DNA of 64,000 bases, taken from assembly GCA_029098225.1 (NCBI GenBank), contig JAQXNX010000032.1:186001-250000 (forward strand). Reading direction: 5' to 3'. Positions 3,019 through 28,242 of the stretch are shown piece after piece. This stretch comes from Spirochaetales bacterium (GTDB lineage: Bacteria; Spirochaetota; Spirochaetia; Treponematales; Treponemataceae). Position numbers and translations under genes: made by a program. A model generated the notes under the pieces. That model worked only from the letters and a program-made list of their open reading frames with translations. It had not been told where the DNA came from and searched no databases. Numbering within the stretch: the stretch's first letter is position 1; every line of letters begins with the position of its first letter.

Positions 3019-4491
3019 CTATTTTTTAGCTTCTGCGTTAATAAATTTGTCTGCCCCCTGTTCATACCACCACTTTGTGTATGGCAGCTTAATGCGTGCA
3101 GCAAGGTTCTTTTCAAAGCTGCGGTTTGTAACAGTGTCGCGAATCAGCTTTGCAAAGCTCAAAGTTCCTTCATAACCAAACACTGTATACTCGTCAGCAA
3201 CAAATACTGCAGCAAATCCCTGTTTAATTGCCCAAACTGTTGTTCCAGGATGGCGACTGAAGTAAACATCAGGCTGATAGTGATTTAAGATATTCAAAAC
3301 CTCGTAGTTCTGCTGGTCTGCAACGGCAACCTTCATATCCTTTGGAGAATGCTCAAGAAGGTGTTCCAGGGCAGGAGGAACCTTTCCGTTGTCGTATTTG
3401 TAGTCGTAGTGCCAGGCAAGAGCATATTCTACAGTCATGCCGAATTCCTGAAGAACACGGGCGATTTCGTAAGTAAAGCCAGGTCCCATACCGATTACGG
3501 CTTTGAGTCCCTTAAGTTGCTTTGTAACTTCTTCAATCTGAGGAAGATAAATTGCTCTCTGTTTTTCGATATAAGCTTCTGCCTCAGCACGCTTACCGAT
3601 TGCATCTCCGATTCCGCGCAGCCAGGTTTCAAAACCAGTAATACCTGAATGGTTGATTGTGCGCACATAAGGAACACCATATTTTTCTTCCAGAGCATTT
3701 CCAAGATAAGTTCCTAAAGTACCGCAGATACAAACTGTGGCAAGAGCCTCACTCAAATGAGACAACTCCTCAATAGTTGAGTTACAGTAAAGGAACTGTG
3801 GTTCAGCATCAAAAACTTCATTAAAGATTTTTGTAATCTGTGGACGTGCACTTTCGTAGAAGTTTTTAATATTGATTGTTCGTCTCTTCTGTTTTGGAGG
3901 CTGTACAATTCCCTGCAAAACTGCATGGTCTGAAATATCAAAACCACTGGCCCAGATGCGGCTCTTAAAGCCTTCGCAGTGAACTGGAATTACAGGAATT
4001 GGAAGTTCTTTGTCTAAGTCACTTGCAACACCGTCTACGTCTTCTCCGGTTACTCCGGAAACACAGCTTGTAGAAACAAAGATTGCATCAGGCTTATACG
4101 CTTCGTAAGTGTGACGGATAATTGCTTCCAGATCCTTTGTTGCACCAAATACAGTGTCTTTTTCATTAAGGTCTGTACAAACAAAAACTGAGTTTGTAGT
4201 TTTATTTACGCGGGCAGCAATCTGTCCGAACTTTACAGCATCGTTACTTGCCATAGCAGTACAGCCGGCAGGAGCATGATAGACAACTGCAACATTACGA
4301 ATTGCCGCAAGAGCGTTCAAGGCACAGCCACTAAGACAAGAACTTGACTGGCTGAAGCAGCGTTCGCGGTTACGTAAAGTGCCGTCTTCAGACTTATTAA
4401 CTAAGGTTTGTAAGTCTCCAACAAAACCTGTAATGGAACCAAGACGGTTCTCTCGAATTGCTATATTTGCATTACTAAAATTAAATGGCAT
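3019..4491 (-). CDS. Nitrogenase component-1-like protein, alpha (NifD/NifE-like) subunit
   Basis: 490 residues. P-cluster-type cysteines are C52 (SSCLSGC), C77 (HAPAGC) and C143 (STSCVSG), with NifD-like spacing of 25 and 66. VCICGTLGTYLG puts C256 exactly 12 residues before EEKYG, where NifD has the FeMo-cofactor ligand Cys275. However, in CEGFKSRIWASGFDIS the equivalents of NifD Gln191 and His195 are Trp180 and Phe184, and no histidine matches His442 before FGYEG. So it is built like a cofactor-binding alpha subunit but is unlikely to be a dinitrogen reductase. The nearest known analogues are methylthio-alkane reductase (Mar) and other nitrogenase-like groups; NifE-like scaffold use is an alternative. 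A GAGGAGG site precedes the ATG, 21 nt after the NifK-like stop. Confidence 0.88.
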   Translation of the reverse strand: MPFNFSNANIAIRENRLGSITGFVGDLQTLVNKSEDGTLRNRERCFSQSSSCLSGCALNALAAIRNVAVVYHAPAGCTAMASNDAVKFGQIAARVNKTTNSVFVCTDLNEKDTVFGATKDLEAIIRHTYEAYKPDAIFVSTSCVSGVTGEDVDGVASDLDKELPIPVIPVHCEGFKSRIWASGFDISDHAVLQGIVQPPKQKRRTINIKNFYESARPQITKIFNEVFDAEPQFLYCNSTIEELSHLSEALATVCICGTLGTYLGNALEEKYGVPYVRTINHSGITGFETWLRGIGDAIGKRAEAEAYIEKQRAIYLPQIEEVTKQLKGLKAVIGMGPGFTYEIARVLQEFGMTVEYALAWHYDYKYDNGKVPPALEHLLEHSPKDMKVAVADQQNYEVLNILNHYQPDVYFSRHPGTTVWAIKQGFAAVFVADEYTVFGYEGTLSFAKLIRDTVTNRSFEKNLAARIKLPYTKWWYEQGADKFINAEAKK

Positions 4492-4512: not shown

Positions 4513-5817
4513 CTACAGCTTCAATTTTGACATTGCGGCAGTAAATATCTGTTCAAGGAGGTGAAGTCCTCCCGAATAGCCGGCAATGTGGTCATTAATT
4601 ACAAGTTTTTCCAGCATCGGGTAGCTTACATTTACATAGTGAGCTCCAAGTTCAGCAGCCAGCTTCTTTTCCCAGTTCGAACCGATAATCAGCGGAGTTC
4701 CCGCAAAATCAAAGCCCTTAATCTGCTCGTGAATATCATGACCGTCAGTTGTGAACTGCACTTCCGTTTTAATTCCATAATTCAGATTGTTTACTTCGTC
4801 AGTAATCTTCTGCTGGAAAGCCTTTGGCGCATCATCAACTATAAAAAGCTTTTCAGGGAAGAGCCCCATATCATTTACAAGAAACTTAGTAACGGCAATT
4901 GTATATTCACTGTCGCTTACAACTGTAAAGCGTTTTCCAAGAATACGGGTTTCAAGCAAAGTGTCGGCAAAGCGTTCAATGTAATAGTAGAACTCGGCTT
5001 CCTTCTCTGCAATTACGCGTTCAACAAGCCCCTTATCAATTCCGGTAAAATCCTGAACAGCGCGAAGGAACTTTGTAGTTTCACTTGCACCAATCGGAAG
5101 AACCGGATACTGCAAAAGCGGAATTCCAAAACGGCTCTGCAAATATTTAGCACTCTCAAGACCGGCCCAAGGGGAAACAAGAATAGTAAATTCAGCGTTT
5201 GGAACTTTCTTAAGATTATCAAGTCCGCGGCCAAAACCAAAAATTGTATTAGGCTTTAAACCAATTGCAGTCAGTAAATTCTCAATTTCACGTAAATTAC
5301 CAAGCCAGTAAGGATCCTGCTGAGGAGGAGCAACAAAAAGATTTACCAGTCCCTTTTCTTTTTCCGGCTCAGCGTATGCAAGATACTGTTCAAAAATAGA
5401 TTTCAAAATCCAGTCGTGGCCAACGTAGTTGTTTCCTTTAAAGCCCGGAGTCTTTGCCCAGATAACAGGCTTTTCAGCATTAGCAAAATTTCCGGTAACC
5501 TCTTCTATATCATCACCAATAATTTCACCGGTACAACCAGAAAGCACAACAAACAAATCTGCGTCAATAACCTTGAGCGCATTTTCTATAGTAGAACGTA
5601 ATTTTGCACTTCCACCAAAGACAACTTCTTTTTCACTAATAGACGTACATGGAAAAATGTTAGGACTGTAACGTCCGCTGGTTCCGTTGTTGTCGTTCAA
5701 TTTTGCCGCACAGCCTGGCCCCGAATGTAAAATCGGAATTGCCCCGGGAATAGCCTGAACGGTCTGCATTGCAGCAAGCGCACATTTGTAACGCGGCTGG
5801 TCCAAAATTTTTGCCAT
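4513..5817 (-). CDS. Nitrogenase component-1-like protein, beta (NifK/NifN-like) subunit
   Basis: 434 residues, shorter at the N-terminus than NifK. Three cysteines, C12 (RYKC), C36 (HSGPGC) and C95 (LSGCTGE), have spacings of 24 and 59, nearly those of NifK Cys70/95/153, so a bridging P-cluster-like centre with the partner alpha subunit is expected. EKEVVFGG and IIGDDIEE are further family marks. It is the first gene of the operon, with an AAGGAG site and a leader of about 45 nt from the promoter at 5869-5897. No NifH-like ATPase reductase, NifB or NifEN is in the window, so electron donor and cofactor assembly must be encoded elsewhere. The cysK, MalY and Rrf2 neighbours point to a reduced-sulfur substrate. 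Confidence 0.87.
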   Translation of the reverse strand: MAKILDQPRYKCALAAMQTVQAIPGAIPILHSGPGCAAKLNDNNGTSGRYSPNIFPCTSISEKEVVFGGSAKLRSTIENALKVIDADLFVVLSGCTGEIIGDDIEEVTGNFANAEKPVIWAKTPGFKGNNYVGHDWILKSIFEQYLAYAEPEKEKGLVNLFVAPPQQDPYWLGNLREIENLLTAIGLKPNTIFGFGRGLDNLKKVPNAEFTILVSPWAGLESAKYLQSRFGIPLLQYPVLPIGASETTKFLRAVQDFTGIDKGLVERVIAEKEAEFYYYIERFADTLLETRILGKRFTVVSDSEYTIAVTKFLVNDMGLFPEKLFIVDDAPKAFQQKITDEVNNLNYGIKTEVQFTTDGHDIHEQIKGFDFAGTPLIIGSNWEKKLAAELGAHYVNVSYPMLEKLVINDHIAGYSGGLHLLEQIFTAAMSKLKL

Positions 5818-5840: not shown

Positions 5841-5904
5841 TTACCTATTGACTTAGTAGGTAGCTATGTTTATACTACAAGTAACCTACTAAGTCAATAG
5901 GTAA
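5841..5904. promoter_or_regulatory. Mirror-symmetric divergent promoter with long inverted-repeat operator
   Basis: A perfect 21-bp inverted repeat has arms at 5841-5861 and 5884-5904 (core ACCTATTGACTTAGTAGGT) around a 22-bp centre. Each arm holds a -35 TTGACT: plus strand 5848-5853, then 17 nt, then TATACT 5871-5876; minus strand 5897-5892, then 17 nt, then TATAAA 5874-5869. The two -10 boxes overlap in the centre. Each arm is itself an ACCTA-N9-TAGGT dyad, the size expected for an Rrf2-type dimer site, and an Rrf2 regulator is encoded at 7322. Occupancy would block both promoters at -35. The assignment to that regulator is inference. Confidence 0.85.
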
Positions 5905-5925: not shown

Positions 5926-6037
5926 TCGCGAGGGAGAAGAATCCCCCTCGCTTCAAACGCCTGCGGCGTTTTCCGCTACCCCCTCTGCGGGGCTAACCAA
6001 CAAAGTTGGTCTTAACGCCGCCCCGCAACGCCCTGCT
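5926..6037 (-). repeat. GC-rich interspersed element, family 1 copy 2 (in the malY leader)
   Basis: A 112-bp GC-rich block lying in the roughly 180-nt untranslated leader of the C-S lyase gene. Read on the minus strand it has AGCAGGGCGTTGCGGGGCGGCG split by a hairpin (ACCAAC...GTTGGT), AGCCCCGCAGAGGGGGTAGCG, an AACGCCGCAGGCGTT hairpin, and GCGAGGGGGA near the end. It matches the elements at 2929 and 7217. Confidence 0.8.
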
Positions 6038-6065: not shown

Positions 6066-7250
6066 ATGAGCTACAACTTTAATCAAATTTTCGATCGACA
6101 CAATACGAATGCTGTAAAATTAGATCTTGCTGTACCACGTGGAAAGCCTGCCGATGTACTTTCTCTCTGGGTTGCAGACATGGATTTTCCAACAAGTCCT
6201 GCTATTCTGGAAAGTCTTCATAAAAAAATAGATCACGGAATTTTTGGTTATTCATGCCTGGATGAACCTTTTCATCAAGCTCTTTCTGCCTGGATGAAAA
6301 ACGAGCATAACTTTACTTTTGAACGGCGCGAACTTGTAACAACACCGGGAGTTGTTTTTGCAATATCAAGTGCAATCAAAGCTTTTACAAAAGAAGGAGA
6401 AAGTGTTCTTATTCAAACACCAGTTTACTATCCTTTTAAAAATATGATTGAAGCAAACAACAGACGTACCATTACTTCCTCTCTTTACGAAAAAGATGGT
6501 AAATGGCAGATAGACTTTGAAGACTTTGAAAGTAAAATTATAGAGAACAATGTTAAGCTATTTATTCTCTGCAGTCCTCATAATCCGGTGAGCCGGGTCT
6601 GGACACGAAGCGAACTCGAACAGCTGGCTGAAATCTGCCTTCGCCACAATGTAATTGTTTTTGCCGACGAGATTCACAACGACTTTGTTTATGCACCGAA
6701 TGTTCATACTGTATTTTCTACACTTTCTCCCGAAATAGCAGAAAATTCAATTATTTCAATGTCGCCAAGCAAAACCTTTAATCTTGCTGGACTTCAGTTT
6801 TCTACAAACTTTATAAAAAATCCTTCACTCCGTTCAAAATTCAAAGCTGAACGTGACAAAACCGGTTATGACGAACCTAGCCTTATGGGTATAGTTGCAG
6901 CCAGAGCCGCTTACGAAGGCGGAAAACCCTGGCTTGAAGAACTCAAAAAACATCTTATTTCAAATATTAATTTTGTTCGAAGTTATCTAAAAGACAAACT
7001 ACCGTTAGTTAGGTTTATAGAGCCAGAAGGCACTTTTCTTTTATGGCTTGATTTTTCTGCCTACGGAATTCCAGACGGCGAGCTTGACGACTTGATTGTA
7101 AACAAAGCAAAAGTCTGGCTGGACCGGGGTACTATGTTTGGTGCAGAAGGTGATTGTTATCAGAGAATAAATATTGCAACTTCGCAAGTATTACTGCAAG
7201 AGGCAATAGATAGAATAGCAGGGGCGTTACGGGGGCGGCAGCCCCTGTAG
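6066..7250 (+). CDS. MalY/PatB-type PLP aminotransferase, probable cystathionine beta-lyase
   Basis: A fold-type I PLP enzyme of 394 residues. The PLP lysine is K236 in SPSKTFNLAG, with FADEIHNDF supplying the cofactor Asp and LWVADMDFPT at the N-terminus, all hallmarks of the MalY/PatB group. Members cleave C-S bonds in cystathionine or cysteine to release homocysteine or sulfide. It has a GGAAGGAG site and is transcribed away from the nitrogenase-like operon from the shared promoter. The last dozen residues (GALRGRQPL at the end) are encoded by a GC-rich repeat that overlaps the stop, so the repeat has supplied the C-terminus. Strict aminotransferase activity is the alternative. Confidence 0.9.
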   Translation: MSYNFNQIFDRHNTNAVKLDLAVPRGKPADVLSLWVADMDFPTSPAILESLHKKIDHGIFGYSCLDEPFHQALSAWMKNEHNFTFERRELVTTPGVVFAISSAIKAFTKEGESVLIQTPVYYPFKNMIEANNRRTITSSLYEKDGKWQIDFEDFESKIIENNVKLFILCSPHNPVSRVWTRSELEQLAEICLRHNVIVFADEIHNDFVYAPNVHTVFSTLSPEIAENSIISMSPSKTFNLAGLQFSTNFIKNPSLRSKFKAERDKTGYDEPSLMGIVAARAAYEGGKPWLEELKKHLISNINFVRSYLKDKLPLVRFIEPEGTFLLWLDFSAYGIPDGELDDLIVNKAKVWLDRGTMFGAEGDCYQRINIATSQVLLQEAIDRIAGALRGRQPL

Positions 7251-7321: not shown

Positions 7322-7747
7322 ATGTACAGAATTTCTACACGAGGGCAATATGCTCTTTTAATTATGGAAGATTTAGCCATGGGACAAAAAGACAAATACA
7401 TTCCATTAAAAACTCTTTCACACAGAAGAAATCTTTCTGTAAAATATCTGGAACAGATTCTTATTCAGTTGAGTAAGGCTGGACTTGTTTCCGGTTCCCG
7501 TGGAATTAGCGGAGGCTATAAACTCACAAAAGAACCAGAAAAATATACTATAGGAGAAATTCTTAGAGTAATGGAAGGAGATCTTTGTCCGCTCAGCACA
7601 TTTGAAAATAAAACATTAATATCCGAAGGCAGTCGTTCTTTCTGGAATGATTTTGAAGATACAATTAATAATTATGTAGATTCAGTTCACCTGGATGACT
7701 TAACAGAAAAAAACAAAAAATTTGTAGGCTATGATTATTGTATTTAA
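7322..7747 (+). CDS. Rrf2-family transcriptional regulator (CymR/IscR-like)
   Basis: 141 residues: a winged HTH over residues 1-65 with the family wing GSRGISGGYKL, then a dimerisation helix. IscR-type members bind an Fe-S cluster through three cysteines near residues 92-106. Here only C89 lies in that region and the next is C140, so it is closer to CymR, the cysteine-metabolism repressor that senses via CysK and O-acetylserine. It follows the C-S lyase with a TGGAGG site and ends flush against the convergent pyrophosphatase gene. It is the best candidate to bind the inverted repeat at 5841-5904 and so autoregulate. That binding is inference. Confidence 0.9.
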   Translation: MYRISTRGQYALLIMEDLAMGQKDKYIPLKTLSHRRNLSVKYLEQILIQLSKAGLVSGSRGISGGYKLTKEPEKYTIGEILRVMEGDLCPLSTFENKTLISEGSRSFWNDFEDTINNYVDSVHLDDLTEKNKKFVGYDYCI

Positions 7748-24212: not shown

Positions 24213-24214
24213 TC

Positions 24215-24252
24215 TAAAAAAACAGGCTGGTTTATAACCAGCCTGTTTTTTT
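24215..24252. terminator. Bidirectional rho-independent terminator
   Basis: ACAGGCTGGTT pairs with AACCAGCCTGT around a TAT loop, flanked by A6 and T7, so it works for both the GH127 gene and the convergent pseudouridine synthase gene, whose stop codon lies in the T-run. Confidence 0.93.
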
Positions 24253-25276
24253 AGACTTCGGGGCTCCCAGCACTTTCCCAGTCGGGTAAACATTTTACGT
24301 CGTAAACTTTTTCACCAATCGTAAATGAAAGCCCTGCCGAATGAAGATAAATTCGTTCAGCTTTACTGCCTCCATACAAGATATCCCCAAGAATCGGAAT
24401 TCCTTCTTCTGCTAGATGCACACGTATCTGATGAGTTCTTCCAGTAAAAAGCTCACATTCTACAAGAAGACATTTTTTATTTTCAATTGTAATTTCTTTT
24501 ATCACAGAAAATTCCGTTTTGGAATAAAGTCCGCCGTCTTTCTCAGAAACTCTGCCCCATTTTGCATTCTGCGAGCTTTTAGAAATTCTGTTCATAAACA
24601 TTTCCACGCAAAAATGCGCGCCTGGAAAAAAATTATTTTGAACCGTACCAATTTTTCCATTTGCAAATTTGTTTTTTCCGCCCGCTGAATTTTCCGGTCT
24701 TTCAACAATTGCATAATATTTTTTTATAAGCCTATGACTTTGGAAAATATCAGAAATTTCTTTATTAACATTTCTGTTTTTTGTAAATAGAATCAAACCG
24801 CTTGTAGTTCTGTCCAGTCTGTGCATAATTCCTGCATAAGGCGGATTTCTTAACGCTTTATTTCGTGACCACAAAAAATCTACCAGAGCATCATGAAGAT
24901 TTACCCGATTACCGGTAATAGTCTGTTCAACCGGGAAAAAAGCCGGTTTATTAATAAAAATTAAATCTTCATCTTCGTAAACAATTTCTTTTTGAGTTAA
25001 AGTAAACTTAATATCTTCAGGCTGCTTTTCAAAAAAGAATTTTTCTGAATCAAAATTTATAAAAACTTCAGATTTACCACGCAATTCAAAAGCAGGCCGT
25101 GTTACATTTTTTCCATTTACTTTTACCGCGCCGCAAAGAATAAGCCTTCGGATTTTTGAATTGGAAAGATTGTCGTTTTTTAAAGAAAGCGGAAGCTGCT
25201 CGCGCAAAAATATATCCAGCCGTTCATTATCTGATGAATGTAAAAGAATATTTTTTTTCATGTCTTGTATTTTCAA
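24251..25276 (-). CDS. RluA-family RNA pseudouridine synthase
   Basis: 341 residues: S4 RNA-binding domain at about 15-80 (LSNSKIRRLILCGAVKVNGK), then the catalytic domain with GIMHRLDRTTSGLILFTK, whose HRLDRxTSG aspartate is the catalytic residue, and TGRTHQIRVHLA near residue 280. It isomerises uridines in 23S rRNA or tRNA; the exact site (RluC/RluD-like) cannot be assigned. It follows the radical-SAM-like gene by 1-2 nt, implying co-translation. Confidence 0.92.
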   Translation of the reverse strand: MKIQDMKKNILLHSSDNERLDIFLREQLPLSLKNDNLSNSKIRRLILCGAVKVNGKNVTRPAFELRGKSEVFINFDSEKFFFEKQPEDIKFTLTQKEIVYEDEDLIFINKPAFFPVEQTITGNRVNLHDALVDFLWSRNKALRNPPYAGIMHRLDRTTSGLILFTKNRNVNKEISDIFQSHRLIKKYYAIVERPENSAGGKNKFANGKIGTVQNNFFPGAHFCVEMFMNRISKSSQNAKWGRVSEKDGGLYSKTEFSVIKEITIENKKCLLVECELFTGRTHQIRVHLAEEGIPILGDILYGGSKAERIYLHSAGLSFTIGEKVYDVKCLPDWESAGSPEV

Positions 25277-27920: not shown

Positions 27921-28000
27921 AAATAATCTCCAAATATAGTGTATATTTGTTACACGACAGAATATTTTAATACTATCATTTATTTATCGCAAGTAGTAAA

Positions 28001-28101
28001 ATCAAACAATGGCATAAATGCCATTGTTTGATTCACGCATTTTTTTGCTTCGCAAAAAAAGTGCTCAAATAAAACAATGTCGTAAATGCCATTGTTTTAT
28101 T
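28001..28101. repeat. Three consecutive hairpins upstream of the SGNH esterase gene
   Basis: The 356-nt gap 27921-28276 has no gene. It holds a perfect 32-nt palindrome 28001-28032 (ATCAAACAATGGCAT arms), a TTTTTTTGC/GCAAAAAAA hairpin at 28037-28064, and AATAAAACAATG/CATTGTTTTATT at 28068-28101. The first and third share the core CAATG...CATTG and look like diverged copies of one unit. Confidence 0.75.
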
Positions 28102-28116
28102 GATACATTTTTATTA

Positions 28117-28242
28117 TTTCAAAAAGACTTCCGTTACACAAATCTGAAAAGTCATGGGTTACGGGCGGCACCGCTTGGAGCGCAAGCTCGCTAAAACCGT
28201 AAAATGACTTTTCAGATTCGTTTCACTCACGTCTTTTTGAAA
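28117..28242. repeat. Large 126-bp nested inverted repeat with GC-rich loop
   Basis: Outer arms TTTCAAAAAGAC/GTCTTTTTGAAA and inner arms AATCTGAAAAGTCAT/ATGACTTTTCAGATT enclose a GC-rich loop containing GGAGCGCAAGCTC. It ends 34 nt before the esterase ATG. The near-perfect ends resemble a small non-autonomous insertion, but no target duplication was recognised. Confidence 0.65.

Follow-up and report, generated by a model that had tools for sequence, protein, structure and literature searches.

The locus and its flanking genes

The window analysed here, that is the whole stretch of 64,000 nt at positions 186,001-250,000 (forward strand) of contig JAQXNX010000032.1, belongs to the 3.05-Mb genome of a gut Treponema deposited as Spirochaetales bacterium (GCA_029098225.1; Spirochaetota; Spirochaetia; Treponematales; Treponemataceae). 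Two operons diverge within it. The leftward operon, on the reverse strand, encodes in order a NifK-like nitrogenase-component-1 subunit (4513-5817), a NifD-like subunit of the same component (3019-4491), a divergent cysteine-synthase-like enzyme, CysK2, with matches below curated cut-offs (1933-2910), and a LysR-type regulator, LysR1, which ends the operon (952-1899). The rightward operon, on the forward strand, starts with a PatB/MalY-family C-S lyase (6066-7250; TIGR04350, above cut-off) and continues with Rrf2A (7322-7747), a CymR-like Rrf2 regulator of 141 aa with the C-terminus YDYCI, which we propose as the protein binding the two operators described below. Promoter and inverted-repeat scans of the stretch between patB and rrf2A returned neither a promoter-like match nor an inverted repeat, and the genes show an 8-bp overlap at the Treponema bryantii locus (L089), so that co-transcription is likely.

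The solved chain closest in sequence to the NifK-like protein is 9d9u/9fmg, 9FMG being a methylthio-alkane reductase complex (PMC12552129). The locus is like the methylthio-alkane reductase (Mar) system of Rhodospirillum rubrum both in this match and in apparently tying a nitrogenase-like enzyme to sulfur acquisition, but differs in that the regulator is of the Rrf2 type. Upstream of the window, the same contig (G000:C32:150560-170308; L019, L020) carries nifB-like, nifH-like and nifX-like genes, a second nifDK-like pair and transporter genes, all within 45 kb; one nifH and one nifB may serve both nitrogenase-like enzymes.

A GC-rich intergenic repeat occupies both the patB leader (5930-5992) and the gap between cysK2 and the nifD-like gene (about 2930-2990). 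At least 16 copies of it, with 69-100% identity, are present in the genome, and the GC-rich leader was accordingly rejected as part of the promoter device, being a dispersed repeat. Other long inverted repeats in the window are a perfect hairpin (20 bp, 3-nt loop; 24213-24255) and a cluster of 12-16-bp inverted repeats (28000-28218).

Geometry of the mirrored promoter

The nifK-patB intergenic region contains the longest perfect inverted repeat of the window (gaps of up to 100 bp considered), with arms at 5841-5861 and 5884-5904 that are 21 nt long, 100% complementary and separated by 22 nt; first-order Markov resampling of the window, repeated 100 times, yielded perfect arms of 15 nt at most. 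Each arm holds the 19-mer ACCTATTGACTTAGTAGGT, itself an ACCTA-N9-TAGGT dyad, the two copies lying in opposite orientations. We designate these predicted operators O1 (5843-5861, forward strand; assigned from its sequence and motif family) and O2 (5884-5902, reverse strand; assigned from its sequence and from a 41-bp register present in 17/17 sequences, see below).

Towards patB-rrf2A, a promoter scan identified the -35 box TTGACT (5848-5853, forward) and the -10 box TATACT (5871-5876, forward), predicting a transcript start at about 5883. Towards the nifK-like gene, alignment of 17 sequences identified the -35 box TTGACT (5892-5897, reverse) and the -10 box TATAAA (5869-5874, reverse), with a predicted start at about 5862; lacking the T at -7, this second -10 box is missed by a promoter scan that demands T at its position 6. 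The spacer is 17 bp in both directions, and the two -10 boxes overlap such that TATA at 5871-5874 is common to both. O1 overlaps the patB-direction -35 together with the predicted first ~20 transcribed bases towards the nifK-like gene, and O2 overlaps the nifK-direction -35 together with the predicted first ~20 transcribed bases towards patB.

The arms, their dyads and the overlapping central -10 boxes, each 17 nt from a -35 in one arm, had all been described in the first-pass annotation and were borne out. Its term 'perfectly mirrored' is right for the arms but not for the -10 boxes (TATACT vs TATAAA), and its expectation that both operons would be shut equally is not supported by comparison with relatives, the -10 boxes differing consistently across the 17 sequences. 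The patB-direction box is TATACT in 16/17 and TATAGT in the other, whilst towards the nifK-like gene the -10 reads TATAA(A/C/G) or, in a single sequence, TATACC, and is without T at -7 in 17/17; the two directions are therefore probably of unequal strength, with the nif side predicted to be the weaker.

Overlapping -10 elements and divergent transcripts are also features of the bidirectional promoters described by Warman, Grainger and colleagues, defined by opposite-strand starts 7-25 bp apart; the starts predicted here from sequence geometry are 21 bp apart. The preferred distances in that work are 18, 10 and 23 bp, whereas here four bases, TATA, are shared, strong -35 boxes and mRNAs are expected in both directions, and symmetric operators flank the promoter.

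Conservation in relatives

All 80 Rrf2A loci that were fetched come from Treponema or close relatives. Sixteen of these have a patB-first rrf2A operon facing a nifK-like gene and, together with the window, provided 17 distinct nifK-patB intergenic sequences, in every one of which the operators keep an exact 41-bp spacing. The -35 is retained on both sides in 17/17 (with TTGAC in the patB direction), as are TATA in the centre and the CC and GG of each dyad, and the spacer and flanks diverge. Treponema bryantii, a commensal of the rumen that is in culture, also carries the element. Perfect identity of the arms is confined to the window, relatives' arms differing at one to a few bases. With the 41-bp spacing the symmetry axis of the complete element falls at the centre of TATA, and the register is explained by this being the only spacing that lets both -10 boxes share the palindromic TATA.

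Over all loci we counted 93 operator pairs, with a -35 in both arms of 29; 18 of these 29 are spaced at 41 bp and six at 50 bp. Most of the remaining pairs belong to promoters that face one way only and have their second operator close to the start site, and the mirrored form is thus the bidirectional version of a common regulon layout. For the 111 TTGA-type -35s of the 93 pairs, the best -10 lies 17 bp away in 92 cases and matches 5 or 6 of 6 bases in 94, vs 23/111 with shuffled gaps. At four loci (L168, L177, L188 and L213) rrf2A is preceded by a run of three or four operators, divergent to nifH at two of them.

A perfect 21-bp inverted repeat is also a common signature of an RNA hairpin or attenuator and of a mobile-element end, and could on that ground be something other than an operator pair. 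Each predicted transcript starts between the arms, so that neither RNA holds both of them; the arms vary independently in relatives whilst the dyads and -35 boxes stay, and the element occupies one and the same intergenic position in all 17 sequences. Most other copies, moreover, are not mirrored. Given the 17-sequence alignment and the 93-pair survey we rejected this reading, which we regard as extremely improbable. As judged by these comparisons, the mirrored element is conserved and looks functional as an operator pair around a promoter.

A putative sulfur regulon

The exact motif ACCTA-N9-TAGGT occurs nine times in the 3.05-Mb genome, vs two occurrences of a reversed control, and among 37 sites there are five pairs 40-49 bp apart vs 0.026 expected. 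Exact sites precede cysK1, nifB-like, nifH-like and cystine-type transporter genes, two sulfonate/taurine-like transporter operons and the MetN operon, and one-mismatch sites precede metE and metY. The genes for cysteine and methionine with an upstream site are thus cysK1, metY, the cystine-type SBP gene, metN and metE. A genome search for sites like ACCTATTGACTTAGTAGGT before other sulfur genes had been the check proposed in the first-pass annotation, and it found them (cysK1, metY, metE and transporters). The same annotation had pictured autoregulation of the whole local sulfur cluster: autoregulation is strongly supported by the comparisons, but the regulon reaches beyond that cluster, to a candidate set of about a dozen targets in this genome under one motif and one candidate regulator. 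The nitrogenase-like genes share this motif with methionine and cysteine genes, which is circumstantial evidence that they serve sulfur acquisition rather than nitrogen fixation.

Which protein binds the operators

The motif is found upstream of 47/59 operons encoding Rrf2A orthologues (sites within 450 bp) and is exact in 39; 29 permuted half-sites searched upstream of the same 59 operons gave a mean of 0.28 and a maximum of 2. The partner genes of these operons differ (nifK, nifH, cysK, metN, nifB or none known) and the sites persist, with 12/59 operons having no site within 450 bp. Among 36 same-genus genomes the median number of sites is seven with Rrf2A vs one without (p=1.6e-5), and the effect also holds among genomes that lack LysR1-like proteins (p=0.0017) or NifK-like genes (p=0.0024), all three p values being descriptive since they ignore shared ancestry. 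Counts of a control pattern across the 36 genomes showed no effect of Rrf2A. The operators have the spacing of an IscR type 2 site, CC-N13-GG with A/T-rich flanks (PMC4055776), which fits an Rrf2-type binder.

This spacing is one of the points against a LysR-type regulator, either LysR1 (952-1899) or the LysR2 protein beside metE, binding the motif in the manner of CysB or MetR. ACCTA-N9-TAGGT is compatible with the loose T-N11-A pattern of LysR sites, LysR1 is encoded in the nif-like operon, more sites occur in genomes with a close LysR1, and a one-mismatch site lies between LysR2 and the adjoining metE. Four genomes in which a LysR1-like protein is absent or only remotely matched (G006, G018, G014 and G020) nevertheless have five to 13 sites, four with a LysR1-like protein (G005, G017, G021 and G012) have none to two, and in the absence of Rrf2A a LysR1-like protein made no difference to the site count (p=0.41). 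The count tracks Rrf2A rather than LysR1; we therefore rejected LysR as the binder and consider such a role very unlikely.

The genome also encodes an IscR-like paralogue, Rrf2B (contig C9), which carries a Cys triplet and could, by itself or together with Rrf2A, bind the motif in response to Fe-S status rather than cysteine. A one-mismatch site lies 41 bp upstream of its own gene, one other gene having such a site too, some genomes without Rrf2A retain sites, and nitrogenase-like enzymes require Fe-S clusters. The strong, paired and exact sites, however, precede the Rrf2A operons and not Rrf2B or Cys-triplet paralogues, and the targets are cysteine and methionine genes. Upstream sites were found for 0/7 Cys-triplet paralogues of the G017 type (one with only 52 bp upstream), most of which also carry an Ile tail. 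Alignments and these upstream regions led us to reject Rrf2B as the main binder, and we consider a part for it in the manner outlined very unlikely. Canonical sites before metY or cysK1 are kept in genomes without a detected Rrf2A, namely G007 and G011 (94% completeness) and the less complete G016, G022, G026, G033 and G035; another protein may share the motif there, or Rrf2A may have been missed. In G012, which has a nifK-like gene and no Rrf2A, the contig breaks off a short way upstream of nifH.

Comparative genomics thus strongly supports the Rrf2 protein at 7322 as binder and autoregulator, as first suggested from the window: the motif precedes its orthologues' operons and sulfur genes of its own genome, and site number follows its presence. 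Rrf2A most probably binds both halves of the element and represses both operons together.

Rrf2A is CymR-like and may be gated by CysK

Rrf2A belongs to the Rrf2 family (PF02082, 98.6 bits). Its closest solved structure by sequence is CymR (2Y75, E 1.4e-22), which also ranks first in a Foldseek search with the AlphaFold2 model (E 2.5e-11, 39% identity; mean pLDDT 83, with the last six residues <50). It scores 109.8 bits against the NCBIfam CymR equivalog NF047409, below the cut-off of 195, and is for that reason termed CymR-like and not CymR. In alignments Rrf2A lacks the Cys triplet that provides the Fe-S ligands of the [2Fe-2S] protein IscR.

With CymR, the Rrf2-family cysteine master repressor of Bacillus subtilis and Staphylococcus aureus, Rrf2A shares the structural match, the missing Fe-S Cys triplet, a C-terminal Ile as in the B. 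subtilis protein and cysteine and methionine genes as targets. It differs in being spirochaetal, in its score under the NCBIfam cut-off, in adding a nitrogenase-like cluster to the targets, in operators arranged as mirrored or tandem pairs and in a CysK gating that is putative. IscR shares with it the Rrf2 fold, and the IscR type 2 site the half-site spacing WWWWCC-N13-GGWWWW; unlike IscR, Rrf2A has no Cys triplet, the inner bases of its sites are CCTA rather than CCxYA, and the targets are sulfur genes, not Fe-S assembly genes.

The C-terminal Ile is invariant in 74/74 Rrf2A orthologues, mostly as [YFW]-x-Y-x-I, and ends a poorly conserved linker. B. subtilis CymR is counted among those partners of CysK that carry an Ile motif at the C-terminus (PMC12895370), and CysK-dependent DNA binding has been described (PMC9338935; PMC3828012). 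The invariant Ile lends support to involvement of CysK and O-acetylserine and, by analogy, we lean slightly towards a model in which Rrf2A represses when cysteine is plentiful, aided by CysK, and is freed by O-acetylserine on sulfur shortage. The only clear CysE-like protein of the genome (L221:1489-2400) ends in ...SVITQG, without a C-terminal Ile. CysE is usually anchored to CysK by such a residue, and a grip of CysK on tails of this kind is consequently uncorroborated by CysE here. A hybrid class of Rrf2 proteins in other Treponema genomes (L047, L048, L052, L054 and L105) combines an Fe-S-type Cys triplet with a C-terminal Ile and adjoins cysK in some genomes; possibly it reads both signals.

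Proposed mechanism

We propose that the element is a sigma-70-type promoter, symmetric and bidirectional, flanked by two palindromic operators, each of which would be bound by one Rrf2A dimer. Judged by position, operator occupancy would block RNA polymerase both ways, because each operator covers one -35 and adjoins the start of the other promoter downstream. The leftward output would be the nitrogenase-like NifKD pair, the CysK-like enzyme and the LysR protein, and the rightward output the C-S lyase and Rrf2A itself, which would thereby repress its own synthesis. To judge by the location of further copies of this operator, mostly paired 40-50 bp apart around a promoter, cysK, metY, the nifH-like and nifB-like genes, the cystine-, methionine- and sulfonate-type transporters and metE would likewise come under Rrf2A. 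When cysteine is plentiful, CysK would grip the C-terminal Ile of Rrf2A and aid repression, as in Bacillus CymR; during sulfur shortage, accumulating O-acetylserine would free Rrf2A. Taken as a whole, an autoregulated Rrf2A repressor with paired operators on a bidirectional promoter, heading a sulfur regulon that includes nitrogenase-like genes and is probably gated by CysK, is in our judgement well supported and quite probable.

Implications

A literature search found no published Treponema sulfur regulon, nor did titles or abstracts from other searches mention such a case. We thus found no earlier account of a sulfur regulon that joins a CymR-like repressor to a symmetric bidirectional promoter, each component being known. 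Control of bidirectional promoters was, according to a 2026 paper, entirely undescribed before that paper (PMC12825309); the element described here offers a natural, deeply conserved bidirectional promoter that is putatively controlled by a repressor. For rumen and gut Treponema the analysis offers a concrete regulon of co-regulated sulfur genes previously undescribed, and regulon membership suggests growth conditions under which these nitrogenase relatives might be assayed. In the widest form of the proposal, to which we give an even chance, a CymR-like repressor outside the Firmicutes, with its Ile tail held by cysteine synthase, would control nitrogenase-family enzymes from a one-register symmetric promoter across many species, with timing set by the balance of O-acetylserine and cysteine. 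If true, that balance would decide when nitrogenase-type enzymes for sulfur acquisition are made.
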